Positions 7,638-55,206 of a DNA stretch of 64,000 bases are shown in pieces. The notes below the pieces were generated by a model. That model saw nothing but the letters and a program-made list of their open reading frames with translations, was not told where the DNA came from and did not search any database. The DNA is from Fibrobacterota bacterium. GTDB lineage: Bacteria; Fibrobacterota; Chitinivibrionia; Chitinivibrionales; FEN-1185. A program made the translations under genes and the position numbers. Every line of letters starts with the position of its first letter. Position 1 is the first letter of the stretch. Where the stretch lies: the NCBI GenBank assembly GCA_003165595.1, contig PLWQ01000003.1, positions 41,960 through 105,959 on the forward strand. The letters run 5' to 3'.

Positions 7638-7818
7638 AAATAAACCGGAACGATTGAAATTATAGGCGGCGGCAAGACAAAAGATAATGAAGACAGCCCG
7701 TTCAAAGACAAAAGAAGGCGGCGCAGGAGGAAGACAAGAAATTAAGACGGGGGGGGGGCTTGAAGCAGAAAGAACCTCAAGGCAAGAAATGCAAAGGCTA
7801 TTTTAAGAGAGAAACAAT
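7638..7818 (+). promoter_or_regulatory. Conserved cassette leader upstream of brxF
   Basis: A purine-rich non-coding leader: AATAAACC, then GGCGGCGGC, then a run of ten G (7749-7758), AGAAAGAA and GCAAAGGCTATTTTAA (7791-7806). The same order of blocks occurs at 21980-22140 before the Mrr gene, at 42813-42934 before rhuM, and partly at 34761-34838 before the Fic gene. The leader therefore travels with the cassettes and may carry a promoter or a processing signal. No clean -35/-10 pair was identified. Confidence 0.5.
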
Positions 7819-11950: not shown

Positions 11951-11960
11951 GGGGAAATAG

Positions 11961-14585: not shown

Positions 14586-14587
14586 AC

Positions 14588-16252
14588 ATGAAAGCAACTG
14601 CCTTAAACCTCGCAGCAACTTTTAATGATGCTGAAGTCGATTTCTATACAATCCCGCAATACCAGCGTCCTTATACCTGGGACACTGAGCATTACGAAAC
14701 ATTATGGGAAGATTTGAATGATGCCTATTGTGAATACCAAATAGCAAAAACTAACGGCGCTCAGCCCGAATACTATTTCCTTGGGCCCGTTGTTTTTGTT
14801 AAGAATAAAGAGCATAAATCATACGATATTATTGACGGGCAACAGCGCACAACGACTTTCCATATCTTGCTCTGGTATTTATACCGCACGCTATCGGATG
14901 AAACCGAAAAAGCTCGCCTTTTGAATATCCTTACGTTTTTGGGTAAAGCGCCTAAGCTTAAGGTATCTGCCAAGGATGCAGCTACTTTCCTCAAAATCCG
15001 TGAATCAAATGATGAAATAATCGGCACATCAAAAATGGCAATATGCGCTAACTATTTCAGGGGTAAACTAAGCGGATTTTCTAATGCAGATGTGTTTTCT
15101 GAATTCTTGCGGGAATACATTCAATTCATCGTAATTGTTGCAGACGATTATAATAGAGCATGGGATTTATTTATCGGGATTAACGGCAAAGGGGAACCTC
15201 TAAACCCAACTGATTTAGTAAAGGCATTTGTTTGTGGTCGCTCTGATGTTGGCGATACGGTTGGCACAATATGGGAAGAGAAGATACTACCGCTTAAAGA
15301 CGCTTCAACTGCGTACCTGCTATTCCTCGCGCGGTTCCGTGGAAGGAAATTTGTTACCGAAAACGCGCTGTTCAAAGAGATTACGAAACAATTCCCCGCA
15401 ACAATGCGGACAGTCGATATTTCAGAATACAGCGAGCTTTTTTATAGGTTCTGGTTGAAAAACATTGATGAAATACCAGCAGATTTCCAAGGTGGCTTGA
15501 ACTTCCCATTAGAAGCAAACAAAGCACTTCGTGTACTTAGAGATTTGGGAAGAAGAGATTTCACCACCATTCTCTTCCAATATGCAGAAGCATTCGGACA
15601 AAAAAGTGTATTTGAGCCTGATCTTCTTCAACTATTTGCCTCCTACCAGATACGAATGGCTGTTGCACGGAAGAGATCACGAGAGCGCAAATTTGTAACC
15701 GAATTTAAGGATTACCAGTTTATTTCAGAAGCCGTTCCCGGTGATACTCGCAGCCCGGCAGAGAAACAAGCCGCCGATAAGGCTGCTGCCTTGGACAAAA
15801 TCCGTTCGTTTATGAAAGCGGATGCGCCCGATGATACTACATTCGAACAACTCATCAAACTTGCCGACTATGGAAATTATCCAGCGAGAATAGTTTTAAG
15901 ACACCACGAAGAAGGCGAACGTGGTAATAAAATCATCACAGAATATCAGTTAGAGCATTTAATGCCACAAACCGCAACCGACTATTGGTATACAGCAGCC
16001 GGTACTACAGATAAAGATGTTTATGCGAAGATAGTCAATAATATCGGGAACCTTTTTGTAATTGACCCAAAAACAAACAATGAGGTTAAGAACAAGGAAT
16101 TCTCAGTAAAGAATGCTTTTTATCAAAAGCACTTGAAAGACTGGTCTATTGCCAGAATTTCTGCTAGTAAATCGGCTTGGACTCCTACAGACATTGCCAC
16201 ACGGGTGCAAGAAATTGCAGCTTGGGCAGTAAAATATTGGAGTATGGCTTGA
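14588..16252 (+). CDS. GmrSD-like DUF262/DUF1524 nuclease inside the BREX operon
   Basis: 554 aa. The N-terminal DUF262 domain has 'IPQYQRPYTW' and the ParB-like NTP-binding motif 'IIDGQQRTTTF' near residue 80. The C-terminal DUF1524 domain carries the HNH-like motif 'YQLEHLMPQ' near residue 455, then 'NNIGNLFVI' and 'NAFYQKH'. Fused proteins of this type (GmrSD, BrxU) are type IV restriction enzymes that cut modified phage DNA in an NTP-dependent way. It sits between pglXI and brxHII, 2 bp after the former and overlapping the latter, so it is translated with the operon. It would cover phages whose modified DNA escapes BREX. Confidence 0.88.
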   Translation: MKATALNLAATFNDAEVDFYTIPQYQRPYTWDTEHYETLWEDLNDAYCEYQIAKTNGAQPEYYFLGPVVFVKNKEHKSYDIIDGQQRTTTFHILLWYLYRTLSDETEKARLLNILTFLGKAPKLKVSAKDAATFLKIRESNDEIIGTSKMAICANYFRGKLSGFSNADVFSEFLREYIQFIVIVADDYNRAWDLFIGINGKGEPLNPTDLVKAFVCGRSDVGDTVGTIWEEKILPLKDASTAYLLFLARFRGRKFVTENALFKEITKQFPATMRTVDISEYSELFYRFWLKNIDEIPADFQGGLNFPLEANKALRVLRDLGRRDFTTILFQYAEAFGQKSVFEPDLLQLFASYQIRMAVARKRSRERKFVTEFKDYQFISEAVPGDTRSPAEKQAADKAAALDKIRSFMKADAPDDTTFEQLIKLADYGNYPARIVLRHHEEGERGNKIITEYQLEHLMPQTATDYWYTAAGTTDKDVYAKIVNNIGNLFVIDPKTNNEVKNKEFSVKNAFYQKHLKDWSIARISASKSAWTPTDIATRVQEIAAWAVKYWSMA

Positions 16253-19050: not shown

Positions 19051-20881
19051 CTGGATTGATAAATACCAAAAGCTAATCGCTTCAAGCCATAAGAAGCATA
19101 TCATCGTTGCTGATATTGACCGTCTATTTGAATATGCCGAATTGCAGCAGGCCGTTACTGACAATGATTTCACAATTATCAACGCTGTGACCCCACTTGA
19201 TGTTCGTATTCGTTTTGAATTGGATGTCAGGAATAGCAGCAAGTCGTTTATCATAGTAACAAGTGGCTCTTATCTTCCACCACCTGATATGGGCATAGCA
19301 GTACATTTTCAGTCTATTGGCCTCAAGGATATTTTCCCATTTCTTGATTCAAAAGCAATCCAGGGGCTAAGTTTCAATGCGCTTTGCCTTCTGAGTAATA
19401 TTAAACCATACGAAGAACTAAGCCATGAGAAAACACTAAAGTTTCTTTTGGAAAATCTATACAATGTAGATTTCGACACCCTGACAGGCGTTAAACAGAA
19501 AGAAAGAATCCTGCATGCTCTCATCACTGTATTACTGGAGAAGAATGCAATCAATCCGCCATTATCTTCTTTCTTGAAAAGACTTGCCAAACCATATTTC
19601 CCTACATTATTTGCCGCAGATTTCAACAAAGATATTCTTATACAGTATTTGTATGAACAGTGGTCTGCATACATAAACACTGGTTCTTGCGAAGTTGACT
19701 TTGAAGATACTGTTCTCAATAAGAGCCTCGGTTTTCTGTTCGTTTTTGACTATATCAAAAAGATAAGAGTAACCGCTGAACGATTTCGTACTATTCCTAG
19801 ACCCTTAACTGTCGGCGTATACATAGACGAGAATGAGAGTAATGATGCTGACCTTTCCGCGCTACTCTCTTATCTGGAGCAGCAACAAAACACCGTCGAA
19901 GATTTATATAGCCAATGGTTCGATATCGTTAAAATATTGGCCAAAGCCAAAATCAAAGAACTTGCTACGGCAGACCAAAGCCTAAAGGAAAGATCACAAA
20001 AGGTTACTACCGCGCTTAATCAGCGATTCCAGCGATTTATTGACAACGTATATGCCAGTCTATTTTCTCTCAGTGGTGTTAGGGCGCCGGTTGTCATTAG
20101 CCGTATGCTGGAGTATATCAAAGCCCAACCTGATAAACGCAAGGCGTTATTGGTACTCGACGGTATGAATTATTGGCAATGGCGAATAATTGAAAACAAT
20201 TTGCGCGATGCAGGCCTTGGGATTTTAACAAAAACAAGCATGGCATATATCCCAACAATCACCGCATGGTCGCGACAAGCTTTGTTTAGTGGTTGCAAGC
20301 CTAACCTTGACGAAACCAACGTCAAAGAAGCACGATATTTTGCGGCATATTGGGGCAAGTTCGGTTACGGTAGTCACCAAATTGATTTCCTCAACTACAG
20401 TCATAATAAACCTTTGGCAGTAAATTCGATATCTGAAGACATTTCTATCCTCGGGATCGTCTGCAATGACCTCGACGATATTTTGCATGGTGCTGTTTTA
20501 GGCGATCAACAACTGCTGACTGCGACGCAACAATGGCTTCAAACAAGCAAGATTATTGAATATGTTCTTGGCCTCCGTGATAAAGGGTTCAAAGTATTTA
20601 TTACAACCGACCATGGCAATGTGGAAGCAATTGGAATAAAGAACCTCAAACAGAAAGAAAAGGTAGGCTCGCTCTCAAGAGGCAGCAGATTTATTCAATT
20701 TAGCAACGAAACCATGCTCAATAATTTCAAAGAACAAAACCCGGATATATCAATAGGTATTCGAGACAATTCGGTTTTTCTAAAGCAAGAAGATGCTTTT
20801 GCAGAACAGGATGTCAAAATTGTTACCCATGGCGGTTCACATCTGTGGGAAGTACTGATTCCCTTTGGAGAAATCCAATGA
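19043..20881 (+). CDS. pglZ: BREX-3 alkaline-phosphatase-superfamily protein PglZ
   Basis: 612 aa. Metal-binding motifs of the PglZ branch are visible in the C-terminal half: 'LLVLDGMNYWQW', 'ITTDHGNVEAIG' and the terminal 'THGGSHLWEVLIPF'. PglZ is the hallmark protein of BREX/Pgl systems; related members show nuclease activity, and the protein contacts PglX. The N-terminal ~330 residues are less conserved and would mediate interactions. The start overlaps the brxHII stop by 8 bp and its stop overlaps the brxA start (ATGA), showing tight translational coupling. Confidence 0.9.
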   Translation: MANWIDKYQKLIASSHKKHIIVADIDRLFEYAELQQAVTDNDFTIINAVTPLDVRIRFELDVRNSSKSFIIVTSGSYLPPPDMGIAVHFQSIGLKDIFPFLDSKAIQGLSFNALCLLSNIKPYEELSHEKTLKFLLENLYNVDFDTLTGVKQKERILHALITVLLEKNAINPPLSSFLKRLAKPYFPTLFAADFNKDILIQYLYEQWSAYINTGSCEVDFEDTVLNKSLGFLFVFDYIKKIRVTAERFRTIPRPLTVGVYIDENESNDADLSALLSYLEQQQNTVEDLYSQWFDIVKILAKAKIKELATADQSLKERSQKVTTALNQRFQRFIDNVYASLFSLSGVRAPVVISRMLEYIKAQPDKRKALLVLDGMNYWQWRIIENNLRDAGLGILTKTSMAYIPTITAWSRQALFSGCKPNLDETNVKEARYFAAYWGKFGYGSHQIDFLNYSHNKPLAVNSISEDISILGIVCNDLDDILHGAVLGDQQLLTATQQWLQTSKIIEYVLGLRDKGFKVFITTDHGNVEAIGIKNLKQKEKVGSLSRGSRFIQFSNETMLNNFKEQNPDISIGIRDNSVFLKQEDAFAEQDVKIVTHGGSHLWEVLIPFGEIQ

Positions 20882-21609
20882 CCGCTACCGGCAAATATAT
20901 CGGAATCAATCAGCGAATACCATTTGATGTTCTTGATGCAGCTTTGTACCGCTTATTGCGAGATAAGAATATGGACAAGAATTCTATTTTATCTCATTTG
21001 AAAGAATTTACTAAGGGCGAGAACAGGGCTAACAAAGCAGCGCAATATGCCGTTCAAATATTATCGCGCCAGGAAAACTGCATTAACGAACTAAACAAAA
21101 CAATTACAGCACCAGCCTACTTGAAACTACCCATTACAGACCGGAAAGCAATTGTCTTGGCTCTTGCCGCTTTAACATATCCAATAATTTATGACCTACT
21201 AATCGCATTAGCCACAGGTTTCAAAGTTCAGTCACAAATCAATCGGCAATTTATCAATTTAAAAATGGCTTCGATATATGGCAGCAATAGGACGTTAGAC
21301 ATTGCCTTGGACGCTTTAATGCCTATGATAATTGAACTGAATACAATAGAACGCGTTAAAATCAGCCTTTATGCTTTAACTCAAAAAAGCATTATTAGCT
21401 ATCCCGCAATAATTGAACTTTTGATTTACACAGATATAAAACTATCTGGTTCAAAATCAATTTTGGTTGATGATCTCCAATACCGGCCATGGTATATGTT
21501 TTTTGAAGTGACACTTAACAAAAAGAATTCTTACACTTTATTCAAGTATGATGAAAGCAGGATTGGACAGGGGTATCTAACAATCAACGGCATTGAGAAC
21601 AAATCATAG
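20878..21609 (+). CDS. brxA: BREX protein BrxA (DUF1819-like)
   Basis: 243 aa from ATG 20878, which overlaps the pglZ stop; a start at 20845 would lie inside pglZ. It is helical throughout, with segments 'LPITDRKAIVLALAALTYPIIYDLL' and 'QINRQFINLKMASIYGSNRTLDIALDALM' matching the small DUF1819/BrxA family, which has a NusB-like helical fold and binds DNA. In type 3 BREX, brxA is normally the last gene, as here. The downstream 180 bp to the attC-like site are purine-rich and non-coding. Confidence 0.82.
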   Translation: MTATGKYIGINQRIPFDVLDAALYRLLRDKNMDKNSILSHLKEFTKGENRANKAAQYAVQILSRQENCINELNKTITAPAYLKLPITDRKAIVLALAALTYPIIYDLLIALATGFKVQSQINRQFINLKMASIYGSNRTLDIALDALMPMIIELNTIERVKISLYALTQKSIISYPAIIELLIYTDIKLSGSKSILVDDLQYRPWYMFFEVTLNKKNSYTLFKYDESRIGQGYLTINGIENKS

Positions 21610-21787
21610 AATTGCAAGCAATAAGAAAGGAATGAAGAAAGCCCCCCCCCAAGAAAAAGGCAAGAGACAAAAGGCAATTAAAGACATGCGCCGCCGGACA
21701 GAAGAGAACGGGCTGAAAGACAAAGAAGAAAAGACGAAGAGCCGCCGCAGAAAGACATTACACTATGGTAGCGTTCCGGTTTACATC

Positions 21788-21979
21788 TTACAACAAACGC
21801 ATGGCGGTTGCGGGCTCAAAGCAGCCCTCCACCCAAATGCCCGCTTGGACTAGGGGTAGCGCTTACGTGTCCGTTCCGTAAAGCTCCGTGTCCACTCCCT
21901 TCGGTCGGGCACTCCGCTTTACTGCACGGCACTTCAGCGATATTATAGGCGGGCACTTCGCCATGTGTCAACGTTGTGC
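21788..21979 (+). repeat. attC-like palindromic site after BREX
   Basis: 192 bp. Left end TTACAAC-AAACGCATGGCG, right end CGCCATGTGTCAACGTTGTGC, so ACAAC pairs with GTTGT and CATGGCG with CGCCATG around a long variable centre. It is preceded by GCCGCCGCAGAAAGACATTA...ATGGTAGCG and followed by AAATAAACCAGG, blocks shared with the other sites. The layout matches an integron attC (R''-L''-spacer-L'-R'), with the boundary inside GTTGTGC. It closes the 14.3-kb interval holding BREX. Confidence 0.62.
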
Positions 21980-22850: not shown

Positions 22851-22968
22851 CACAATTTTAATAGCGCAAACAATCTTTTCCTATATATTTCAACCACGAA
22901 TGACAGGAGCCCTTGATGATAGCTCAGGCACATAGGCAAATGGGAACTTTTATTTGGAAGAGGAACAA

Positions 22969-24084
22969 ATGAGCCTGACCAAAATTCCTTCCAAAGATTC
23001 CTTTGGCACCCTTGTTAAAAATATTCGAAGTATTATCCTCACTGCCCGCCAAACAGCAGTACGACAAATTGATTTTCTGCAGGTTGTTACTAGTTTTGAA
23101 ATCGGCAGGCAGATTGTAGAATATGAACAGCAGGGTGCAGACCGAGCGAAGTATGGCGCAAAGGTGCTTTTCAACCTTTCGGTAAAATTGTCAGGTGAAT
23201 TCGGAAACGGTTTCTCTTCCACGAACTTAAAACTGATGCGGCAATTTTTTCTCCAGTATAGAACCCGCATTGGTCAGACGCTGTCTGACCAATTACTTCC
23301 CGGAACAAAAGGCCAGACACTGCCTGACCAATCCCGAAAAACCCAACCGGCACGAGCACGGATTAACCTTAGCTGGTCCCATTATGTCTTCCTGTTGGGC
23401 ATAAAGGATTCCGAGGAAAGGAATTTCTACGAGATAGAAGCAACTCAAGAGAATTGGTCATTGCGAGAATTGAAGCGCCAGTTTAATTCCGGGCTATATG
23501 AGCGTCTGGCTTTGAGCCGCAATAAAACCGGCATACGGAAACTTGCGCTGGAAGGCCAAAAAGTCGAAAAACCCGAAGATCTGATTAAAAACCCCTACAT
23601 CCTCGAATTCCTGGGACTCGACGAAAAATCGGAATATTCGGAATCCGATCTTGAAAGCGCAATTATTGATAAAATAGAGCATTTTCTTCTTGAACTCGGC
23701 AAAGGATTTTTGTTTGAAGCACGACAAAAGCGATTCACCTTTGACGACGATCATTTCTTCGTTGACCTTGTTTTCTATAACCGCCAGCTCCGCTGTTATG
23801 TGCTCATTGACCTAAAAATCGGCAAGCTCACACATCAAGACCTTGGGCAAATGCAAATGTACGTGAATTACTTTGACCGATTTGTAAAGCGACAAGATGA
23901 AAACCCTACCGTCGGTATTATTCTCTGCCGAAAGAAGCATGACGCATTGGTTGAAATAACTCTGCCTAAAAAAGCAAATATCCATGCGGCTGAATACCAG
24001 CTTTACCTTCCGACTAAAGAGGTGCTCAAGAGAAAACTGCTTGATTGGACGAAGGATGAAGATGTTGGGGTGCGCAGGCAGTAG
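22969..24084 (+). CDS. DUF1016 (YhcG-like) PD-(D/E)xK nuclease
   Basis: 371 aa from ATG 22969, preceded by AGAGGA. The N-terminal DUF1016_N part contains 'FEIGRQIVEYEQQG', 'GNGFSSTNLKLMRQFF' and a repeated 'GQTLSDQ/GQTLPDQ' linker. The C-terminal nuclease domain has 'FVDLVFYNRQLRCYVLIDLK', where the usual ELK is DLK, followed by 'LGQMQMYVNYFDRF' and 'PTVGIILCRKKHDALVE'. The family is often found with restriction-modification and toxin genes. It lies in the same cassette as the broken Mrr gene. A shortened relative occurs at 54509. Confidence 0.85.
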   Translation: MSLTKIPSKDSFGTLVKNIRSIILTARQTAVRQIDFLQVVTSFEIGRQIVEYEQQGADRAKYGAKVLFNLSVKLSGEFGNGFSSTNLKLMRQFFLQYRTRIGQTLSDQLLPGTKGQTLPDQSRKTQPARARINLSWSHYVFLLGIKDSEERNFYEIEATQENWSLRELKRQFNSGLYERLALSRNKTGIRKLALEGQKVEKPEDLIKNPYILEFLGLDEKSEYSESDLESAIIDKIEHFLLELGKGFLFEARQKRFTFDDDHFFVDLVFYNRQLRCYVLIDLKIGKLTHQDLGQMQMYVNYFDRFVKRQDENPTVGIILCRKKHDALVEITLPKKANIHAAEYQLYLPTKEVLKRKLLDWTKDEDVGVRRQ

Positions 24085-24239
24085 AAGGCGTGGCAAGACG
24101 ATAGAAGAAAGATGCTCCCCCTTACAAATCAATCACAAACATGCGCCGCCAGAAAAAGAAACCGGGCTGAAGGGCAAATAAGAAAAGTCGAAGAGCCGCC
24201 GCAGAAAGAAATTACACTATGGTAGGTTTAAATTTACAG

Positions 24240-24386
24240 CCTGCAACAAACAAAGCAAGCATCGGGCGGAAAGCCGCCCTCGGCCTCCGGCACATAGCCG
24301 GTTTGATGCCTCCCTCACCGTCTTCGCTTCGCTCGCGGTGTGACGTCGGCAATCCTGCTACGTCTTGCGTTTGGCAACGTTGCAGC
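24240..24386 (+). repeat. attC-like palindromic site after the DUF1016 gene
   Basis: 147 bp. CCTGCAAC at the left end is perfectly complementary over 7 nt to GTTGCAG at the right end. Inside, AAACAAAGCAAG faces CTTGCGTTTGG. The upstream flank GCCGCCGCAGAAAGAAATTA-CACTATGGTAGG is almost the same as at 21740-21775. The downstream side reads CAATGAATTT, a weaker version of the AATAAA boundary. It ends accessory array 1; GC-rich host-like DNA follows. Confidence 0.6.
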
Positions 24387-31212: not shown

Positions 31213-31383
31213 GGAAGATCAATCCCGGGCATCGGAGAACCGGAACAATATATAATGATCGAGAAGAGTTGACTTATGGCACGGGTAATGATATAGTATG
31301 TCAACGACGGTCAAGGGTGATCGTGGCATATGTTTTTTGGATTCCGTCACACAGGGCAGCCGTGCGGTTATTAGTTTTCCAGC

Positions 31384-31725
31384 ATGAATAAAGTAAGGCT
31401 TACATTACATCCAGGCCACAAGGGAACCTCAAAGGAAATGCGCCAATACGGCGATAAACTCGTTTGCGTGAGATACCGGTATGATGAAACACTTCAGAAA
31501 CGGTTCAAAACCATTGAATTGGTTGTGGATGAAGCACCGTGGAAGCCGGAACCTGCCAATGATCATATTGTTTTCATTACGGTAAAATGGAACGAAAAGA
31601 CTGTCCAGGAGCAGGTAAAAAAGGCAGGCGGACGATGGGACAAAGGGAAGAGAATCTGGAAGCTTCGCTATGGGAAAGTAAAGGAACTGGGGCTGACTAC
31701 AAGGATAACGGAAAAAGATGGGTAA
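31384..31725 (+). CDS. 113-aa conserved hypothetical protein, DUF5710-like C-terminus (copy 2)
   Basis: Paralogue of the protein at 7174-7515; differences are conservative (for example GDRGTTRELRE versus GHKGTSKEMRQ, and DDDIVLVSVKW versus NDHIVFITVKW). The core 'VQEQVKKAGGRWDK' and 'IWKLRYGKVKE' is unchanged. Conservation of protein over DNA indicates that both copies are under selection. Function unknown; it heads array 2 just as its twin heads array 1. Confidence 0.75.
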   Translation: MNKVRLTLHPGHKGTSKEMRQYGDKLVCVRYRYDETLQKRFKTIELVVDEAPWKPEPANDHIVFITVKWNEKTVQEQVKKAGGRWDKGKRIWKLRYGKVKELGLTTRITEKDG

Positions 31726-31826
31726 GCAAATGCATATACAGGTATATACATCAAGAGCATATATTCATAGATGCAAGGATATATTAATAGATGCTTTTTT
31801 ATATTGGTAGATGAGGGGTGGGAGTA

Positions 31827-31847
31827 CACACAACGGGTAGTTGTAAG
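31827..31847 (+). repeat. Array-head junction site, copy 2
   Basis: Identical to 7617-7637 (ACACAACGGGTAGTTGTAAG) and followed by CAATAAATTTG, the cassette-boundary pattern. The next cassette carries the sigma4/HARE/AlbA_2 gene. No large palindrome precedes it, unlike the later sites. Confidence 0.6.
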
Positions 31848-31900
31848 CAATAAATTTGCACCATCGAATTGATGAGCCGCCGCCAGAAAAGAGAAACTAT

Positions 31901-34507
31901 ATGGGTCTTCCTAATGCTTTCCCTAATAATGATCTAGTTCTAGAAAATCTTTCGATTCGCGCAATTAATGCGTGCAAAATGGCTGGCCTTGACTCGACAG
32001 GCAAAATTCTTGAATATTACCGTTTGCACGGAACATTTCTGACACTGAAGAATTGTGGTATTGGCACAGAAAAAGAATTAGTCGACTTATGTTCGAAGTA
32101 TGGTCAGGAACCTTCGCCCCAGAATACTCCTTCTCCTTCTGAAGCTCTGCAACCTTTTCGCCAATATCGCCTCGAATACCTGAAGCCCTACGTTTCACAT
32201 GCCCTCTTCAAAACGCTACTTTCCAATGGCATTGCAACAATCGGCGATTTTTATGATATGAATTTCCGTGATTTTTCCTCTCGACATAGCTTACTGCCGA
32301 AGTTGGTTGAACGTCTTAGGTTAGTTAAGACTACAATTCACAGCCGGCCAGAAAGAATTATAAAGGTAATAGAAGCACATAAATCAGAAATCCTACTTCC
32401 AACTGCTTCGAATAAAAACGACAATGTGCTCCCAAAAGGTTTTATAGATGCATTTGACCAAATTCTTTTATCGTTTATTTCTATTTGCCCTGACAAAAGA
32501 GCAGGTGACCTAATCAATAAGCGGTTCGGACTTGACGGAACACGCTTTACTCTTGAAGAAATCGGACTTTACTTTAGCAAATCACGTGAATGGGCAAGAC
32601 AATTTGAAAATAAGTATGTATCTCAAATTAAGCAACTGATTGCAGGAAATGTTCTTCGAAGGCCCTTCTGTAGTTGTGAGCCACTGTATGTCTCTTGCGT
32701 AAACCAAGGGCGCGCCATAATCACCCCTATACTTGTTAGTGATAAAACCTCTTTAATTTCAAGAATCGAAACAGCAATTGCTACAAATTTTACTCCACGT
32801 CATATAGCATTGCTGGAGTTTCTTTTGTACATTTGGGAAATTGAGACTTTTACTTTTAAAGACCAGTCGTATCTGCTTGATCACAATTTACCAGCACCGC
32901 TTTTTGAATCAATAGCGGTGGCTGCAATAGATACTTTGGAGGCCAAGGTTATTCCATGTGACCTTTTCGAACTTACCGTTTCTGTAAGACGTTCCTTAGG
33001 TAGTAAGAACGTAACCAACGATATGGTTGAGGGGGTTATATCTGTCCTACCACAAATCGTAAAACTAGAAGGCAATAGATTCGAGTTAGCCTTTCACCTC
33101 CTAAATATAAAGGACAAGGCTTATCGGATACTTTACGAAAAACAAGATGCTCTACCGTATAAAGAAATCTGGCGGGAAATTACCCATAGAATTGTTCAAA
33201 GAGGTGTGAAACCAGGCCAAAACATTCTGGGACTCACAAACCAGATGACGCAAGACCCTCGTTTCGTAGCAGTTGGGAAATCCGGTGTTTGGGCTTTGTC
33301 AGAATGGAATTTTAACACGGATACCCTTTTTGAACTCATTTGTTCATTCTTGCAATCAAAAAACTCTCCAGCAACGGCAATTGAAATTGCAAATTATGTT
33401 AAGAGTGTACGTCCAATGACTGAGAAGCAATCCATACAAGGGCTTCTAGGCCTTTATTCCTCAAAATTCGCAAGAACATCCGATGGTCGATTTATTCTAA
33501 AAGAATGGGCTGAATCATATGACACCAACTACAAAAGTCCCATTCCAAAAGCCATTGACGAACCTCAGCTTTTTAATACAATAAAGGGAATTTTTGAAGC
33601 GCACAATTTCAATTCTCTTCCAACCGGAGAGCTTCTGAAAGCTCTAAATGGAAATAATATTTCTTGGTGTGCCGCAACCTTTGAAAACCGCATAAACCGA
33701 TGTAGCTACATTTCGAAACAGGTAAGAGATGGAAAGAACTTCTATTCATTTATAATGGGCTCAAATGCTCCTGCGCCTCGCGAAACGAATGCAAAGGCCA
33801 ATGCCATCAGAAAGGATATTAAGGAAGTTTTATCTGTACAAACCCAGCCCTTGGCTCTATCAAATATTATGAGAATTCTTGTCAAAAAAGGACACAACAA
33901 GGGAACCGCATACCGTGTAATTTCAGACTCGCACGAATTTGCTAAAACCTCATCAGACGGTATCAATCTATTCCTTTCGCTTTCAACATCTCAGGTGCCA
34001 AGCAAAATAGCCCTTTCTTCCAAATTGACTTCATTGCTTGATAAAATACAAGCAGGCGAATCTGGCACCGTTGAATTCAAATCCTCTCTAAGATGGGACT
34101 ATAAACGCAGTTGTCAAAATCACGATTTGGAATTTACCGTGGCCAAAGCCATTACAGGTTTCCTCAATACAAGGCAAGGCACTTTGTTTATAGGGATTAA
34201 TGATTCTGGTAGCACTTTGGGGTTGGACGCTGATTATCGTACTCTTAAAAAGGCCAACAGAGATGGTTTTCTATTACACTTAAATAACATTGTTACAAAA
34301 TATCTTTCTAAAAAGGTATTTAGCAGCGTTCTTCCTGAAATTGAAATCCTGGACAGCAAAGAAATTTGTGTAATTAACATCATGAAGTCGCCAGAACCAA
34401 TTTACCTGTTCAATGATTCCAATTCCGAGTTCTACATTAGAGCAGGTAATTCCACACATAAACTTGATTTACCAGATGCTGTTTCATATATAAAGGCAAA
34501 TTGGTAA
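31901..34507 (+). CDS. RpoA-CTD-like / sigma4-like / HARE-HTH / AlbA_2 (Schlafen-type) fusion protein
   Basis: 868 aa from ATG 31901; the frame opens at 31856. Residues ~12-70 resemble the helix-hairpin of RNA polymerase alpha C-terminal domains (SIRAINACKMAGL...LKNCGIGTEKELVDLC). Residues ~205-245 resemble sigma-70 region 4 (FTLEEIGLYFSKSREWARQFENK). Residues ~405-470 resemble a HARE-HTH domain (LPYKEIWREI...DPRFVAVGKSGVWALSEW). The last ~150 residues are an AlbA_2/Schlafen domain (ESGTVEFKSSL, FLNTRQGTLFIGINDSG). The first three are DNA- or polymerase-related; AlbA_2 domains bind or cut nucleic acid. It is the only gene of its cassette. A defence role is inferred from context. Confidence 0.7.
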   Translation: MGLPNAFPNNDLVLENLSIRAINACKMAGLDSTGKILEYYRLHGTFLTLKNCGIGTEKELVDLCSKYGQEPSPQNTPSPSEALQPFRQYRLEYLKPYVSHALFKTLLSNGIATIGDFYDMNFRDFSSRHSLLPKLVERLRLVKTTIHSRPERIIKVIEAHKSEILLPTASNKNDNVLPKGFIDAFDQILLSFISICPDKRAGDLINKRFGLDGTRFTLEEIGLYFSKSREWARQFENKYVSQIKQLIAGNVLRRPFCSCEPLYVSCVNQGRAIITPILVSDKTSLISRIETAIATNFTPRHIALLEFLLYIWEIETFTFKDQSYLLDHNLPAPLFESIAVAAIDTLEAKVIPCDLFELTVSVRRSLGSKNVTNDMVEGVISVLPQIVKLEGNRFELAFHLLNIKDKAYRILYEKQDALPYKEIWREITHRIVQRGVKPGQNILGLTNQMTQDPRFVAVGKSGVWALSEWNFNTDTLFELICSFLQSKNSPATAIEIANYVKSVRPMTEKQSIQGLLGLYSSKFARTSDGRFILKEWAESYDTNYKSPIPKAIDEPQLFNTIKGIFEAHNFNSLPTGELLKALNGNNISWCAATFENRINRCSYISKQVRDGKNFYSFIMGSNAPAPRETNAKANAIRKDIKEVLSVQTQPLALSNIMRILVKKGHNKGTAYRVISDSHEFAKTSSDGINLFLSLSTSQVPSKIALSSKLTSLLDKIQAGESGTVEFKSSLRWDYKRSCQNHDLEFTVAKAITGFLNTRQGTLFIGINDSGSTLGLDADYRTLKKANRDGFLLHLNNIVTKYLSKKVFSSVLPEIEILDSKEICVINIMKSPEPIYLFNDSNSEFYIRAGNSTHKLDLPDAVSYIKANW

Positions 34508-34607
34508 ACGAAAAGGGTCCCAACAACCTTACGGAGTGCAAATAAATAGTAAACCGAATGGCGGCAGCTGGAAAATTTCAAGACATAGTAGGGTGCAAAT
34601 TTAAAGC

Positions 34608-34760
34608 TTACAACACACGCAGCCGCGCCATGCCCGCTTGACATGACGGTTTCGCCACCCGTCATGTCAGCCAAGTCATGTCGCAAAATGCTCCGTCGTG
34701 GCTGCCGTCGGGCGGCGAGATTTTAGGCGGGCACGGCGGGCAGTGCGTGGAACGTTGTGG
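34608..34760 (+). repeat. attC-like palindromic site after the Schlafen-type gene
   Basis: 153 bp. Left TTACAAC-ACACGCAGCCGCG, right GGGCAGTGCGTGGAACGTTGTGG. A nested stem TGACATGACGG/CCGTCATGTCA lies in the centre. Almost identical to 38652-38804. The preceding flank has GCGGCAGCTGGAAAA, the following flank AATAAATTGGAACGA, then AGCCGCCGCTGAAGAAAG, part of the shared leader. The leader continues to the Fic start at 34906, with AAAATCTATTTTAA at 34825. Confidence 0.62.
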
Positions 34761-34905
34761 TCAATAAATTGGAACGATTAAGACAAATAGCCGCCGCTGA
34801 AGAAAGTTCAAGATTGGAGCCGGGAAAATCTATTTTAATTGTATGAAGATGCAGCGCCCCGAGGACATAATTCGTGCCAAAATGAATAAGAAAGATTTGT
34901 AACCA

Positions 34906-35988: not shown

Positions 35989-36152
35989 GGGACAATGAGG
36001 GTCATTTTTAAGGGACATGATTGAGGAAATTCGCTCATCCGCTCCGGCGCTGGAAATAAACACAAAGAGGGGCGCTGCAAGAAAAAGACATAAGAAATAA
36101 AGAAGCGGCGGCGGAAAGACATTAAATCATGGTAGCGTTCCAATTTACGTGC

Positions 36153-36287
36153 CCACAACACACGCATGCCGGGCGCAGAGCTGCCTTAAATTGCCGCAGT
36201 TTACATTGGAAAAGGCTCGTGTCCGCGCTTCGCTGGCACGAGCCTAAATTATATGCGGCAACTTCGGCATTGCGTGAGACGTTGCAG
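36153..36287 (+). repeat. attC-like palindromic site after the Fic gene
   Basis: 135 bp. Left CCACAAC-ACACGCATGCCG, right CGGCATTGCGTGAGACGTTGCAG. The L-type arms pair over 11 bp with one bulged A, the feature that sets strand choice in integron attC sites. The centre folds as GGCTCGTG/CACGAGCC. Flanks: GCGGCGGCGGAAAGACATTA before; GCAATAAACCAGG and ATGCCGCCGTAAAAGG after. Confidence 0.66.
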
Positions 36288-36399
36288 GCAATAAACCAGG
36301 CCGTAAAGCAAAAATGCCGCCGTAAAAGGGATTGAACAATTTATCTGATAAAGAAATAAAGACGGAAAATCTTCCGCATGATTTTCAAAGGAGGCCAGC

Positions 36400-38565
36400 A
36401 TGAATGGTTACCCTTTTAACATATTCGCTTTATTTCTATTGTTTTTCCCAATTCAAATGGCAAATGCTCAGTGGAAGGAATTGAATAGACCGCCGGGCGG
36501 AGAAATCGCAGCTCTTGCCAAAAGCAATAATACTATCTTTGTCGGAACGCGGGGCTCCGGAATGTTCCGTTCCACCGATAATGGAACAAACTGGGAAGTT
36601 TGTAATAGCGGCATTGGGGCAAATGATAGGACTATCCTATATATCTCAGTAACCGGCAGCAAAATCTTTGCTGTAGGAAATAATGAAGTTTACCTTTCCA
36701 CCGACAACGGGACGAACTGGAGTACCTTTTTCTCTAGAAGTAACTTTTCAATTTCAGCTTTTTCGGTGAAAGATAGTACGACATATTTTGTGGGAGGGAG
36801 CCCGGGAATTATCAGCTATTCCACTGACAACGGCGCAAGCTGGTGGAATTCAAATTCAGGGCTTCCGAGCCTTTACTATGCTACCGCTATTGTAAGTTGT
36901 GGTGATACGATTATTGCAGGATTAGACTATAGTGGTATTTACATGTCCATCGATAATGGAGCAACATGGAGACAGCCGGTGACTACCGGACTTCCGACAA
37001 ATTCATATATATTTTTCTTCCTGAAGGCCGACAGTTGTATCTATGCAAATACGGTTGGAGGCCTTTACATTTCCGACGATAATGGGTTTCATTGGAAATC
37101 GGTGCAAACGGGTAATCTTCCCGTCGTTCGGAGCCTTGCATACAATAATAATAAAGCTCTATTTGCCGGAACCGATTCAGGCGTGTTTCTTTCCACCGAT
37201 AAGGGAACAAGCTGGATTGCCGCCTCACGATTTCCCTATAGCTCAATTTTTGGTTTCAATCAGGTTGATGCTATCGCCTTAACCGACAGTACCATCTTTG
37301 CCGGGACTGAAGGCGGAGGCGTGTTTCTTTCCACCGATAACGGGACGAGTTGGTCTAATACCGGATTCGGTTTCTCGGCCCAAGCAGTTTCATCGCTAAC
37401 AACAATCGGCGACATTCTCGTCTTAGGAACCTCTAACTACGGGATTTTTCGGTCCCTTGACAATGGTTTGCATTGGACTCCTACTGATTCCGGTCTTCCA
37501 CGTTGTCGTGTCAATACAATGAAGACAATTGGAACGACGCTTCTTACCGGAATTTCTTACTTTAACGACACGGTCGGAGGGATATTCATTTCAAATGATA
37601 GTGGGAAAACCTGGTCCTCCCCTCCTTCCAGTACCCCTAAAAGGCCTGTTTGGGCATTTGCCGAAAGTGGAAACACAATTTTTACTGGAACGGATAACGG
37701 GGTCTTTACTTCCAACGATACCGGAAAGACCTGGACGGTGTCCGGCCTCGTAATCAATGATCGATTCAACATACAAATTCATGCAATATCAACAAAAGGA
37801 AATACTGTCTTTGCGGCGAACAAAATTTATACAAATCACAAGGATAGCGTGATTTTCCGTTCTACCGATATGGGCATGAACTGGACACCTTTACACTCAG
37901 GTTTCACGGATTGCACTGTTGCTTATTCTCTCGCAACGATAGACAGCACGATCTTTGCTGGAACCGGATGTGCGCCCGGAACGCCGAATAATGGCGTTTT
38001 CCGGTCTGCGGATAATGGAGACACCTGGACGGCAGTCGGTTTACAGAATTCTATTATTCACGATTTCGCCGTAAGTGGCGGCAACCTGTTCGTCGGGACT
38101 GACAGCGGAGTTTATGTATCCGGTGATTTGGGAAACTCCTGGACGTCTGTTGATTCCGGATTGACCGATATCGTCTCCTCATTTCTCGTACGATACAATG
38201 ATTTGTATGCGGTGACTGGCATAACCTCGAGCAACGGCATATGGCGAAGGGCGATTTCAGAAATGACCGGGGTGAATTCTAAATCGAAGCCGAGAACTCA
38301 AGAACAGTCTGGTGAAATAGCGGTTACTTCGAGACGCTTCGGCTCCCGTATAACTGTTGAACTGACGTTATCTTCCCCAGGTAAGATAGCCGCAGATATC
38401 GTCGACTTATCAGGACATATCGTTGTTCATCTTGTGGATACTAAGCTTTGTCAGGGCCAATACCGCTATCGATGGAATGCAGGGAACGTGGCCAACGGCT
38501 GTTATTTTTTACATGTGCAAACGGAATCTGGCTCCAAGGTGAGGAGCATATTGATTCTGCGATGA
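36400..38565 (+). CDS. Secreted beta-propeller (BNR/Ycf48-like) protein with C-terminal sorting-like domain
   Basis: 721 aa. A signal peptide (~1-24, ending MANAQ) is followed by about a dozen repeats of the type 'GVFLSTDKGTSWIAAS' (Asp-box-like S/T-x-D-x-G-x-x-W), forming one or two propellers. The last ~90 residues ('AADIVDLSGHIVVHL...GQYRYRWNAGNVANGCYFLHVQTESGSKVRSILIL') match the beta-sandwich sorting domain of type IX-like secreted proteins or FlgD-like domains. It probably binds a surface ligand or glycan; no catalytic residues are evident. It is the lone gene of its cassette. Confidence 0.8.
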   Translation: MNGYPFNIFALFLLFFPIQMANAQWKELNRPPGGEIAALAKSNNTIFVGTRGSGMFRSTDNGTNWEVCNSGIGANDRTILYISVTGSKIFAVGNNEVYLSTDNGTNWSTFFSRSNFSISAFSVKDSTTYFVGGSPGIISYSTDNGASWWNSNSGLPSLYYATAIVSCGDTIIAGLDYSGIYMSIDNGATWRQPVTTGLPTNSYIFFFLKADSCIYANTVGGLYISDDNGFHWKSVQTGNLPVVRSLAYNNNKALFAGTDSGVFLSTDKGTSWIAASRFPYSSIFGFNQVDAIALTDSTIFAGTEGGGVFLSTDNGTSWSNTGFGFSAQAVSSLTTIGDILVLGTSNYGIFRSLDNGLHWTPTDSGLPRCRVNTMKTIGTTLLTGISYFNDTVGGIFISNDSGKTWSSPPSSTPKRPVWAFAESGNTIFTGTDNGVFTSNDTGKTWTVSGLVINDRFNIQIHAISTKGNTVFAANKIYTNHKDSVIFRSTDMGMNWTPLHSGFTDCTVAYSLATIDSTIFAGTGCAPGTPNNGVFRSADNGDTWTAVGLQNSIIHDFAVSGGNLFVGTDSGVYVSGDLGNSWTSVDSGLTDIVSSFLVRYNDLYAVTGITSSNGIWRRAISEMTGVNSKSKPRTQEQSGEIAVTSRRFGSRITVELTLSSPGKIAADIVDLSGHIVVHLVDTKLCQGQYRYRWNAGNVANGCYFLHVQTESGSKVRSILILR

Positions 38566-38651
38566 TGGTACTCTTTTTCGGTTCTATGCTGCTTGAAATA
38601 GTGATCAAAATTGCGGCGGCGGAAAGAAAAAGACATGGGCCGGTTTAAAGC

Positions 38652-38804
38652 CTGCAACACACGCAGCCGCGCCATGCCCGCATGACATGACGGTTTCGCC
38701 ACCCGTCATGTCAGCCAAGTCATGTCGCAAAATGCTCCGTCGTGGCTTCCGTCGGGTGGCGAGATATTAGGCGGGCACGGCGGGCTGTGCGTTGAACGTT
38801 GTTG
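38652..38804 (+). repeat. attC-like palindromic site after the propeller gene
   Basis: 153 bp, differing from 34608-34760 by only a few bases across the interior. Left CTGCAAC-ACACGCAGCCGCG, right GGGCTGTGCGTTGAACGTTGTTG. Preceded by GGCGGCGGAAAGAAAAAGAC, followed by GTGGTAAATTTGTGC and AACGCCGCGGG. Near-identity with a site two cassettes away points to a common source. Confidence 0.62.
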
Positions 38805-39035
38805 TGGTAAATTTGTGCACCCCAAGAACGCCGCGGGAAAAATTAAAGTTAGATAAAAATTGAAGCGGGCGTGAGCAAAAAACAATAGCCAAGAATTGCG
38901 GCACAAAGAACAAAGACAATCTTGCGCAGGCGTAATACCCCGCTCACGGTGAATGTTTTGTTCTTTTTTGTTCGGCGAAAAGCATTTTTATGTATACGGT
39001 TAATCGCGAAGGGCAAATTAGTAGGCGTAAAGGCT

Positions 39036-39718: not shown

Positions 39719-39869
39719 ATTCACTGGGCAACTGAAAATCGGCGCAAGAATCAAGAATTTAAGGCCCGTGCCGCAAGAGAATTTCAATACAAAGCCCCCG
39801 CCCGAAAATCATTTTAAGTCCATAAAGACAAGAAGAAGCGCGGCGTAAAGACGGGGGTGCGCAAACATC

Positions 39870-40003
39870 CCACAACACACGCTTGCCGGGCGGCCAAAGC
39901 GCCGCCGCAAATTGCCGCTTTGATGCCTCCGTCGGCGTTTTCGCTGCGCTCGCAGCCGTCATGTCGCCAATGCGTAAACTTCAGCAAGCGTGAAACGTTG
40001 GGC
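39870..40003 (+). repeat. attC-like palindromic site after HEPN-MNT
   Basis: 134 bp. Left CCACAAC-ACACGCTTGCCGGG, right CAGCAAGCGTGAAACGTTGGGC. ACGCTTGC pairs perfectly with GCAAGCGT, and the terminal GTTGGGC fits the integron core consensus GTTRRRY exactly. Followed by GAAATAAACTG. Among the large sites this is closest to a standard attC. Confidence 0.7.
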
Positions 40004-40182
40004 GAAATAAACTGCCCGTAAAGACAGGCTTAAGCTGCTGCCGAAAGGCAACGAAAGAGGAAGAGCTACGCGCCTAAGAACGCCGCATAAATGCGGCGAA
40101 GAAGAGAGCCACAAAATGACAGAGGCATCGAGTGAAAGGAACTTTATGTACGCTTTATTCCGCTTCGCGACAGATCAGCCCA
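40004..40182. other. Cassette leader region with perfect hairpin
   Basis: Non-coding start of the next cassette. CGCCGCATAAATGCGGCG (40081-40098) is a perfect 8-bp stem with a 2-nt loop. The convergent flavoprotein gene ends at 40183, so this hairpin may also serve as its terminator. Confidence 0.45.
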
Positions 40183-40590
40183 TTACGCAATTTGTTTACC
40201 AGCTTCTGCTCCAAGCGATTGATCAAAAATAGATTCAACTACAATTTTCACCACATATTTGGCTTTGGGGAAATTGGCAACTTTGTTCTTGATTCCCTCC
40301 ACTGTCTGCTCGTAAAGAGGCCCCTCCGTAATCAACTCAGCATGACCTTTTAAACTGTACCCTTTGCGCGCCTCCCCGTCATAAACCATAATCGCTACTT
40401 GCGGATTCTCCTCCAAATTTGTCCTTGTCTTCACAGAAAACAAATCTGCAAACATTATGTGCTCATCATCCAAAACGGCCAGACTGCCTTTAATTGCGAC
40501 ATTCGGCATGCCATCTTTTGACGCTGTAGCAACCCACCCGGGTTTTCCGGTCATAAATAGTTTAACTTCTTCTGGAATTTTTGTTGCCAT
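40183..40590 (-). CDS. Pyridoxamine 5'-phosphate oxidase-family flavoprotein
   Basis: 135 aa from ATG 40590, chosen for a GGAGG five bases upstream. Pattern 'KPGWVATASKDGMPNVAIKGSLAVLDDEHIMFAD', 'TRTNLEENPQVAIMVYD' and 'GYSLKGHAELIT' is the split-barrel FMN-binding fold of PNPOx-like proteins. Members reduce or oxidise small compounds with FMN or F420; the substrate is unknown. It is the last gene of a three-gene minus-strand module with an SDR enzyme and a TetR regulator. Confidence 0.88.
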   Translation of the reverse strand: MATKIPEEVKLFMTGKPGWVATASKDGMPNVAIKGSLAVLDDEHIMFADLFSVKTRTNLEENPQVAIMVYDGEARKGYSLKGHAELITEGPLYEQTVEGIKNKVANFPKAKYVVKIVVESIFDQSLGAEAGKQIA

Positions 40591-40646
40591 CGCATCCTCC
40601 ATTTGAAAGGGTTTTATTATTATTGACACAAGCAATGCTGAAAACC

Positions 40647-41591
40647 TCAGGCGTCAACGCCAGATACCTTTACAACCGCCCGCCAAAGGGCGTCCTGATT
40701 CGCGCGGTCATGGAGGTGTTCATGGCGCATGATCTCAATGGGCCCCGTCATCTTTTTAGGGGCCGAGCAAAAGAACTTGCCAGAAACATCGACGCCAAAC
40801 TTCGAGGCGTCGAGATATCTTTTGGCTCCGTCATCGACGGAATGTGACATTCCAGGAATAAGTTTCGAAATCCGCACAAATACGTTCTTCATAACAAAAC
40901 CTAGATTGCGAGGCGCCAGGGTATCTGGAGCGGCTCCGGGTGAAACTGCGTATACGGCCATGTCCGCAGGAAGCTTTCGAGCAAGGGCCGCGACCCACCA
41001 CGCGACAAATACTTTAGCATCAGAGTAAGCCGTGCTGCCCTTGTATTTTACATTCGGGGAGCTGCGCAAAATCGCTTCCACGGCTGAAACCCGGTCGCCT
41101 TTGTACTCTTTCGCAGCGAATGCCGCCAAGTCGGTAAATCGAAACATGGGTACATCACCTCGTGCAGGTTCCGCACCGGCAATAACGATACGAGCATCCG
41201 GCGCAAGAAGTCCGGCCCCTAAAAGTCCCATCGTTAACTGGTGGTGGCCGATCAGCGGCGCTTGCGACGACTCAATGTTCTCACTTGTCACAACACGTTC
41301 TTTGCCTGGCATCATACCAGCGTTAAGAAGGAGAAAATCTATGGGTACGCCTCGCTTTACTAGCTCGGCGACAGCCTTCTTCACGCTGGCAAAGGAATCA
41401 AGGTCTAGGGCGATACCAGTAATATTTTGCATTCCGGTTTCTGTCTTTAATCTATTAACGGCTTCATCCACCCGTGACTGGCTACGTCCAGTGACTATAA
41501 CGTGACTCCAACCATCCTGCACAAGTTGCCTGGCTGCCGAATATCCTAGACCAGACGTAGTGCCGCTCACGAGTGCTAGATTTTTTTTCAT
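40647..41591 (-). CDS. Short-chain dehydrogenase/reductase
   Basis: 314 aa. The NAD(P)-binding motif 'SGTTSGLGYSAARQL' lies near residue 9, 'LLLNAGMMPG' near 90, and the catalytic 'YSDAK' (YxxxK) near 190, followed by 'VSPGAAPDTL'. All catalytic elements are present. It is similar to retinol-dehydrogenase/protochlorophyllide-reductase-like SDRs. Together with the FMN protein it may detoxify a reactive compound sensed by the adjacent TetR protein. Confidence 0.9.
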   Translation of the reverse strand: MKKNLALVSGTTSGLGYSAARQLVQDGWSHVIVTGRSQSRVDEAVNRLKTETGMQNITGIALDLDSFASVKKAVAELVKRGVPIDFLLLNAGMMPGKERVVTSENIESSQAPLIGHHQLTMGLLGAGLLAPDARIVIAGAEPARGDVPMFRFTDLAAFAAKEYKGDRVSAVEAILRSSPNVKYKGSTAYSDAKVFVAWWVAALARKLPADMAVYAVSPGAAPDTLAPRNLGFVMKNVFVRISKLIPGMSHSVDDGAKRYLDASKFGVDVSGKFFCSAPKKMTGPIEIMRHEHLHDRANQDALWRAVVKVSGVDA

Positions 41592-41624
41592 ATGTCCTCT
41601 TCTTTGAAGTTTGTTTTTGTTACA

Positions 41625-42212
41625 TTAACCAAAAATAGAATTCATGGTTGTTTCGACCATTTGCTCCAGCGTTCGAACATCTTGCATATTCACTCTCGCC
41701 ATCACGTTCATGCCCATCGATGTGCCTATGATCCCGGAGGCCAAAGCCGAAGCGTCTTTTACCCGAGGTATTTCCCCAGCTTTCTGGCCTTTTTGAATTT
41801 GAGAGAGAAAAAGTGCCCGCATTTGCTCCACTGACTTCCGTATTTTTTTTGCCAACGGAGGAGGTACATTATTAAGGGTGATGGCAGTGTTAACCAGAAA
41901 GCATCCACCGGGGAACTTCCCGTCAGTACAACAGCGAATTTGCTCAGCAAAAAAAGCCTGAAAGCCCACTTTTACTGAACTCGCATTAAGCAGCTTTTCA
42001 ACCTTTGAAAAGGCGACCTCTTTTATGTAAAGATCGATTGCCTCTTCAAAAAGTTTGTTTTTGTCGCCAAAGGTCTCGTAGAGGCTCGACTTACTTAGTC
42101 CCATCGCTTCTAAAAGTTCCAGGAGATTCGTTGAATCAAACCCACGAGTCCAAAACACTTCAATGGCCTTACGCAATACTATTGTGCGGTCAAATTCGCG
42201 GGTTCTTGCCAT
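41625..42212 (-). CDS. TetR-family transcriptional regulator
   Basis: 195 aa from ATG 42212. The N-terminal helix-turn-helix is 'VLRKAIEVFWTRGFDSTNLLELLEAMGLSKSSLYETFGDKNKLFEEAI'; the C-terminal ligand domain contains 'GGCFLVNTAITLN', a feature of the AcuR/NemR-like branch that often senses electrophiles through cysteine. Its own promoter region holds a 26-bp palindrome. It leads an SDR and an FMN-protein gene, forming a classic self-regulated detoxification module. Confidence 0.92.
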   Translation of the reverse strand: MARTREFDRTIVLRKAIEVFWTRGFDSTNLLELLEAMGLSKSSLYETFGDKNKLFEEAIDLYIKEVAFSKVEKLLNASSVKVGFQAFFAEQIRCCTDGKFPGGCFLVNTAITLNNVPPPLAKKIRKSVEQMRALFLSQIQKGQKAGEIPRVKDASALASGIIGTSMGMNVMARVNMQDVRTLEQMVETTMNSIFG

Positions 42213-42226
42213 TTTTACAATATACC

Positions 42227-42252
42227 TAATCCGGACCACTTAGTCCAGATTA
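42227..42252. promoter_or_regulatory. Probable TetR operator palindrome
   Basis: TAATCCGGAC and GTCCAGATTA form 10-bp inverted arms with one mismatch around a 6-bp centre (CACTTA), starting 15 bp upstream of the tetR start codon. Position and symmetry fit an autoregulatory operator; binding is inference. Confidence 0.7.
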
Positions 42253-42385
42253 ATTTTTACAGGCGCCGTGCTCCTGCTTACCGTTGTAAAAAACAAATCA
42301 ATTTTCAAGGAGAATACAATTATGAGCGATCGTCTAGACCAAAACAAATTATTTATGTTCATAAAAAGCTTTTGTTCATTTGTAA

Positions 42386-42440
42386 GCCTAACAAAAGAAC
42401 GCAGCCGACGCTTTCAGCGCGGCTGATTCAAACGTTATCG
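42386..42440 (+). repeat. Short canonical attC-like site
   Basis: 55 bp. GCCTAAC at the left end and GTT(ATCG) at the right end; arms CAGCCGACGC and GCGCGGCTG pair over nine bases with one bulged A; short loop TTTCA. This length and layout match textbook integron attC sites. It closes the cassette carrying the SDR/FMN/TetR genes, which are reversed relative to the site. Confidence 0.72.
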
Positions 42441-42575
42441 AGAATCTGTGTCTGTCACTTTTCAATACGTCCGCCGGCGCAGTTCCATACGCCGGCGAAT
42501 CAATACGAAGAGGCGCGTAGCAAGAAAAAAACAAAGAACGGCAGCAGCAAAACCGAAGAGCGGGCAGTTTACATC

Positions 42576-42812
42576 GCCCAACACGCTAAGGCAGCTGCGG
42601 GCTTTGAGCATTTCTTGGATTTGAGCACGCCCTTGCCCCTCGGCGGGGTCAAGTTCGGGGATTTGGTTCGATCGACGGGGCAAATAACCGTTGCGGCTTC
42701 GTCGGGCACGGCGCAAACCAGCGAGACAAGGTTGTGCGTCCGCGCCCGTCTTGTCGCCGCAACTCGGGCAGCATCGCTGCCCGTTACTTCTGCCGTTTGC
42801 GGAACGTTGGTG
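42576..42812 (+). repeat. Large attC-like site following an empty cassette
   Basis: 237 bp. Left GCCCAACACGCTAAGGCAG, right CTGCCGTTTGCGGAACGTTGG; CCAAC, CGC and GGCAG elements pair. Followed by GGGAAATAAACCAGAACGA, then GCGGCGGCGAAGG and the shared leader with GCAAAGTCTATTCTAA at 42919. The ~370 bp between the previous site and this one hold no convincing gene, so the cassette appears empty. Confidence 0.58.
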
Positions 42813-43013
42813 GGAAATAAACCAGAACGAATGAAATAGTATGCGGCGGCGAAGGAGAAAACACAAGGATATTCAGATGGGGGTGCATGAAAAAAGAAAG
42901 AAATTAAACTCCTTAAATGCAAAGTCTATTCTAAGAAAAGCGCATACGCCCACGGATTGCCCCAAGAAATGCCCGTTCATTGTGAGTTTGTGAAATTTGT
43001 GCGAAGGGAAAAC

Positions 43014-54342: not shown

Positions 54343-54510
54343 GATTTTCGAGTTTTCCCTCATTGATTGTGTTGACGGTATTAAGACTGTCCCAATAGGA
54401 GTACCACGTTGTGCCGGAATAATATAGAGCGACATAGGTGATATTGCCGGAAGGATAGTAGCCGATATCTTTCGTCGAGCCGACAGGCAGACTCACGGCC
54501 GAAGAATCAT
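54320..54510 (-). pseudogene. Possible C-terminal remnant of a secreted protein
   Basis: The minus-strand frame 'SLPVGSTKDIGYYPSG' through 'YYSGTTWYSYWDSLNTVN' to a stop at ~54317 has the composition of a secreted beta protein end. No upstream part exists, since the DUF1016 short gene starts on the opposite strand. Weak evidence. Confidence 0.35.
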
Positions 54511-55105: not shown

Positions 55106-55110
55106 CGCAC

Positions 55111-55206
55111 CACCAACAGCCGCAGCACAAAAACGTGGCAGACTTATAGGATTGTTGAGTGTACTTGATATGCCGCGCCTTCGAGCGAGTGCGGCGCACG
55201 TTGTGG
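55111..55206 (+). repeat. attC-like site after the shortened DUF1016 gene
   Basis: About 96 bp. Left CACCAACAGCCGCAGCAC, right GTGCGGCGCACGTTGTGG; CCAAC/GTTG and GCCGCA/TGCGGC pair with bulges. Smaller and less regular than the sites in array 2. It begins the interval that carries vapBC. Confidence 0.5.

Follow-up and report, generated by a model that had tools for sequence, protein, structure and literature searches.

Integrons act as reservoirs of defence genes, and the chromosomal integrons of Vibrio carry defence cassettes (PMC12409362). Schlafen RNases accompany BREX systems, the BREX-linked bacterial kind having a wHTH and a minimal histidine-kinase domain as fusion partners (PMC12839542). 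The HARE-HTH domain, which has been proposed to recognise modified DNA, occurs together with Dnd and BREX nucleases (PMC10853773, PMC12839542, PMC11037411). The HARE-HTH–nuclease fusions from defence contexts (Aravind and Iyer 2012, as cited in PMC10853773 and PMC12839542) carry an REase domain (PD-(D/E)XK), and both HARE–nuclease and Schlafen–wHTH fusions are already described (PMC12839542, PMC10853773). A description of the CxC-DndE (PbeABCD) system is given in PMC6459918, and PMC10853773 offers a reinterpretation.

The gene analysed here is located at positions 31901..34507 (+) of a 64,000-nt stretch of the Fibrobacterota contig PLWQ01000003.1 (GCA_003165595.1), referred to below as the window. 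Its reading frame is open over 868 codons and encodes a protein of 868 aa; the longest stop-free run obtained in mononucleotide shuffles of the same ORF was 156 codons. The GC content of the cassette carrying the gene was 0.41, compared with 0.585 in the flank at 26–31 kb. According to the sequence-only reading, one protein combines an alpha-CTD-like hairpin, a sigma region 4-like HTH, a HARE-HTH and an AlbA_2 domain, and profile, PDB, homologue and fold matches confirmed this architecture. The protein is similar to the described HARE-HTH–nuclease fusions in joining the same kind of sensor to a nuclease, but it carries a Schlafen RNase instead, as well as alpha-CTD and sigma-4 modules. Alpha-CTD, sigma-4, HARE and AlbA_2 were found together neither in the literature searched nor in the collections searched (genome contigs, one phylum, phages, plasmids). 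The protein is a fusion, not seen before, of modules each of which is already known, and it was rare in what could be searched. Judging from its sequence, it is most likely a DNA- or transcription-sensing Schlafen RNase with predicted activity.

The first module, an alpha-CTD-like helix-hairpin-helix, occupies aa 12–68 (31934..32104, +), and its top matches in the PDB were RNA polymerase (RNAP) alpha chains (E 0.009 and 0.11). The target alone gave a weak Pfam match (0.061), and the homologue L011/L036 scored above the Pfam cut-off for RNA_pol_A_CTD (3e-7). A second helical hairpin region was tentatively placed at aa 86–150 (32156..32350, +) on the basis of its alignment with the alpha-CTD of the homologue; the Pfam search gave no match for it. 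Sigma-70 region 4 was assigned to aa 200–253 (32498..32659, +), with matches to RpoD_Cterm (1e-5) and to sigmaA region 4 structures (1.6e-4) and a weak match in Pfam (0.054), the Sigma70_r4 cut-off of which was passed by both closest homologues (L011/L036 and L012/L035). Pfam, NCBIfam and PDB searches revealed no match in the target to sigma regions 2 and 3, which serve -10 binding and the contact with core RNAP, and because only region 4 was matched, its identification as a sigma factor was rejected. The sigma-4 region also matched the NCBIfam model of the MzaA C-terminus (1.6e-6), the likeness extending over about 45 residues only. A role as an MZA component was rejected, as the score was 27 bits against a cut-off of 800 for full-length MzaA and the single-gene cassette, in contrast to MZA, contains no partner genes.

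The HARE-HTH domain, similar to RNAP delta, was located at aa 403–471 (33107..33313, +). The Pfam match (3.1e-5) reached 24.7 bits for the whole protein and 25.8 bits for the fragment against a cut-off of 25.9, the NCBIfam model of RNAP delta matched at 2.5e-9, which is under the model's own cut-off, and the five best PDB matches were all RNAP delta, each of them weak. The AlphaFold2 model of aa 395–700 had a pLDDT of 70.6, with much of the HARE unit at 81–88. Foldseek confronted with this model returned RNAP-delta structures at a probability of 0.97–1.00 for the HARE part and no E-value below 0.001, so the predicted fold supports the HARE assignment, with weak E-values. In the same model, the secondary structure H-H-H-E-E was repeated in three further winged-helix units at about aa 476–533, 554–618 and 630–695 (33326..33985, +; pLDDT mostly 60–88). 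In a search of viral folds, no match was convincing. The full-length AlphaFold2 model, built from three sequences, had a pLDDT of 43 and was unusable, hence the sigma-4 and alpha-CTD assignments rest on sequence.

The likeness to RNAP delta (RpoE), sigma region 4 and alpha-CTD is one of sequence and, for HARE, also of predicted fold, but the target has no other RNAP or sigma parts and is fused to a nuclease. Phage proteins are able to seize RNAP surfaces, as T4 AsiA does on sigma-4 and Alt/ModA on alpha-CTD. The protein might be an integrated decoy: with its alpha-CTD, sigma-4 and delta-like modules it would imitate RNAP surfaces of the host, and phage binding or modification would release the Schlafen RNase. 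This would explain the presence of alpha, sigma and delta pieces fused to a nuclease without sigma regions 2 and 3. However, the three winged helices of the tail are not RNAP surfaces and the core also exists in homologues without the nuclease, where it must have another use, and such a decoy was considered quite unlikely.

The C-terminal part, aa 720–855 (34058..34465, +), is an SLFN_AlbA_2 domain (Pfam E 2.9e-18, 67 bits against the curated cut-off of 25.3). A profile of its AlbA_2 subfamily matched solved structures of human SLFN12 (7e-7), SLFN11 (3e-5) and SLFN14 (4e-5) as well as 9ylu, deposited as CbCash (5e-6). The target shares the AlbA_2 fold family and the E-x4-E ... D acids with the Schlafen RNases, both human (SLFN11/12/13/14) and bacterial, and differs from them in having a single AlbA_2 placed C-terminally to a sensor built of RNAP modules. 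In the alignment with SLFN11, PES..IEFK fell on GES..VEFK and the aspartate of GVDD on GIND. On this basis and on that of the relatives' alignment, E720, E725 and D768 (34058..34204, +) are the predicted catalytic acids and correspond to the known Schlafen active-site acids; the equivalent acids are catalytic in SLFN11/13. Both glutamates were kept in every aligned AlbA_2 sequence spanning them and the aspartate in 7/7, with one row spanning the aspartate only. Due to the presence of these three acids, the domain would be expected to be an active RNase, and by analogy with other Schlafens its substrate is likely RNA rather than DNA.

The same residues bear on the reading of the protein as a transcription regulator of the array or of host genes, with an AlbA_2 that has no nuclease activity and serves in DNA binding or dimerisation. 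AlbA_2 proteins are often annotated as regulators, nearly all N-terminal modules of the target are transcription-type DNA-binding folds, and one of the core homologues, L012, lies among housekeeping genes. The acidic triad is nevertheless conserved in the target and in all six relatives covering it, and DNA binding alone would not need it; a regulator of this type seems unlikely. Outside the target, the same AlbA_2 subfamily was detected as a C-terminal add-on on a GmrSD/DUF262 protein (L043, Sinorhizobium) and on an Eco57I methylase in a relative (L013), both partners being of defence types, and this arrangement fits what is expected of an effector. The Eco57I-type methylase (L013:1033-4512, −), at least 1160 aa long, may be a restriction-type protein with a Schlafen RNase as its effector. 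Small AlbA_2 relatives L044 and L045 are stand-alone proteins with hydrophobic N-termini and adjoin non-defence genes.

No full-length orthologue of the target was identified among 168 Fibrobacterota genomes; in the protein search, two of them had the core and several had only AlbA_2. Three homologues of the core without the nuclease were found in these genomes: L011/L036 (614 aa), L012/L035 (534 aa) and L039 (852 aa), the last being a distant relative added by the profile search, whose homology spans HARE and the winged helices of the tail (hhalign E 3e-7). The genome contigs searched yielded nothing but the two homologues of the protein search again and two genes for RNAP delta, the phages and viral contigs searched contained no orthologue, and the plasmids searched gave nothing beyond AlbA_2 or sigma-4 matches.

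Judged by its neighbours, L039 clearly appears to be the last gene of a CxC-ATPase/DndE (PbeABCD-type) anti-phage operon. Upstream of it, closely spaced and on one strand, are a gene for a PbeC-like CxC-ATPase (PADLOC 4e-30; CICGNC motif) and a 141-aa ORF, the size and position of which fit DndE/PbeD (assigned by eye), and it is followed by DNA-methylase and restriction-like genes. In contrast to L039, an operon partner in such a system, the target has no CxC ATPase or DndE in its cassette, and its membership in a Pbe system was rejected. L011 adjoins recC/recB-like genes, also assigned by eye, and only housekeeping genes were present around L012. The expectation that homologues would be associated with defence held clearly for L039, weakly for L011 with its recBCD-like neighbours and not for L012, that is, for one clear and one weak case of the three.

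The operon of L039, together with the role proposed for HARE-HTH and its company of Dnd/BREX nucleases (PMC10853773, PMC12839542, PMC11037411), would also suit a modification-dependent, type-IV-like sensor, in which modified or phosphorothioated DNA would be recognised by HARE and the winged helices and the Schlafen RNase would thereby be set free. In Rhizobium plasmids, an operon of the L039 type begins with a sigma-4-like protein, though these proteins have only sigma-4 in common with the target. The HARE domain of the target is, however, closest to RNAP delta, which to our knowledge is not a modification reader, and no modification genes are present in the cassette; this sensor, too, is improbable. 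The Dnd-linked 'sigma factor-like' proteins of Rhizobium were rejected as homologues on account of the single common module. In the two plasmids concerned (L041:7644-14520 and L042:7572-14495), dnd genes adjoin the CxC-ATPase (Pbe-like) operon, which starts with the sigma-4-like protein and is preceded by a RelA/SpoT-domain gene.

The target had been described as the sole gene of a cassette, which was borne out by an integron gene cassette of 2,914 bp (31840..34753, +) with complementary ends and no other gene. The ends of an integron cassette are complementary because its first bases derive from its own attC. The start of the cassette (31840–31862) was complementary to 34592–34614 at 21 of 23 nt (91%), with GTTGTAAGC at 31840 matching GCTTACAAC within the cassette's own attC. 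In a cross-test of cassette starts against attC arms, the best match was the own cassette in five of six cases, the HEPN/MNT cassette being the exception. The attC closing the target cassette (34606..34760, +) lies within a 162-nt repeat (34600–34761), whose bottom strand folds into an attC hairpin; the repeat recurs at 38644–38805 (94%). Further attC sites of the array were located at 36151–36288, 38650–38804, 39868–40003 and 42575–42813. The target cassette, with its attC hairpin, R'/R'' complementarity and gene in array orientation, is the first of this array. No intI was detected beside the array on this contig, and the two IntI above the curated cut-off in the genome are on other contigs only; the array is integrase-less and not a complete integron. 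As in the Vibrio integrons, a defence-like gene is carried in an attC-bounded cassette, but the phylum is different, the cassette is large and no integrase lies beside the array.

The other cassettes of the array encode Fic, beta-propeller, HEPN/MNT and oxidase-like/SDR/TetR proteins. The cassette at 36400–38565 codes for an apparently secreted beta-propeller of 721 aa with repeated STDNGTNW motifs. All three genes of the cassette at 39997–42806 (oxidase-like, SDR, TetR) are on the strand opposite to the array, an orientation unusual for cassettes. Elsewhere in the window, two DUF1016/PDDEXK-type genes (22954–24385 and 54509–55206) are each followed by an attC-like site, and the former matches PADLOC PDC-S02.

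The architecture, the single-gene cassette and the Schlafen catalytic acids make it reasonable to propose that the protein binds DNA and then cuts nucleic acid, and a one-gene defence is plausible from its predicted domains. The favoured reading, held tentatively and at somewhat less than an even chance, takes the protein for a candidate defence acting on its own and disseminated in an integron cassette, with a DNA-binding sensor of RNAP modules, a C-terminal Schlafen RNase and an abortive outcome. The sensor, composed of the alpha-CTD-like hairpin, sigma region 4, the delta-type HARE and three more winged helices, would bind DNA and keep the RNase inactive until it engages invading DNA or transcription from it. 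The released RNase (E720/E725/D768) would cleave RNA, the most likely targets being tRNA or rRNA, the substrates of animal Schlafens, so that translation would be stopped and the infection aborted. Since the results fit a sensor of promoters, of any DNA, of modified DNA, of RNAP or of phage proteins alike, several readings were kept with modest confidence; the sigma-4, alpha-CTD and HARE modules could just as well recognise DNA, with or without modification, as RNA polymerase or the phage proteins that bind these modules. It is doubtful that the first cassette of this integrase-less array encodes a one-gene defence in which the alpha-CTD, sigma-4 and delta pieces serve as a sensor or decoy for phage RNAP takeover and switch on the Schlafen RNase. 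If true, a defence of this kind would tie transcription-machinery mimicry directly to an RNase effector, provide a compact testable model for noticing foreign transcription and give the prokaryotic Schlafen family a new sensor. The locus is further evidence that, outside Vibrio too, large and unusual defence-like proteins are encoded in integron cassettes.

The cassette is preceded by a leader, which consists of a small DUF5710-like gene (31384..31725, +; outside the cassette), AT-rich repeats and a GGGTA^GTTG site and which heads three cassette arrays in the genome with no integrase nearby. All three leaders end with the same attI-like insertion point, GAGTACACACAACGGGTA^GTTGTAAGC (31822..31848, +, at the target). 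Leader copies and relatives were found at 7155–7650 and 31304–31848 of the window, L060:7330–7858 (−) and L057:1–563 (−), and the leader relative in genome G023 is followed by the canonical GTTAGGC. The site GAGTACANNANNCGGGTAGTTG, with up to two mismatches allowed, was present at the three leaders only (control 0), which suggests an attI-like platform marked by the small DUF5710-like gene and not by an integrase. The leader is possibly an integrase-less attI platform. Searches of plasmids and viral contigs did not turn up its gene.

The second copy of the leader (7.16–7.63 kb), 84% identical, is followed by a complete BREX III operon of seven genes: BrxF, BrxC, PglXI, an extra DUF262 protein, BrxH, PglZ and BrxA. 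The region 7630–21979 of the window starts with GTTGTAAGAAATAAACCGGAACG, 91% complementary to 21772–21794, and contains an attC at 21788–21979, hence the operon looks like one 14.3-kb integron cassette. No paper linking BREX with integron cassettes was found in the literature searched. The placement of the target among defence genes held in part: the adjacent cassettes are not canonical phage defences, and BREX III, the one certain defence system, lies 10 kb upstream, but in a different cassette array. The target was rejected as a BREX component or accessory, as BREX III ends at 21609 in that other array. The first cassettes of the three leader-headed arrays carry BREX III, the target and a helicase pair. 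The last of these, preceded by the third leader on contig C29 of the same genome (G000), is a two-gene cassette (L060:3717-7350, −) with 9/9-complementary ends, encoding a protein of 291 aa and a UvrD-like helicase of 791 aa with weak similarity to GajB, and it is another candidate defence cassette.
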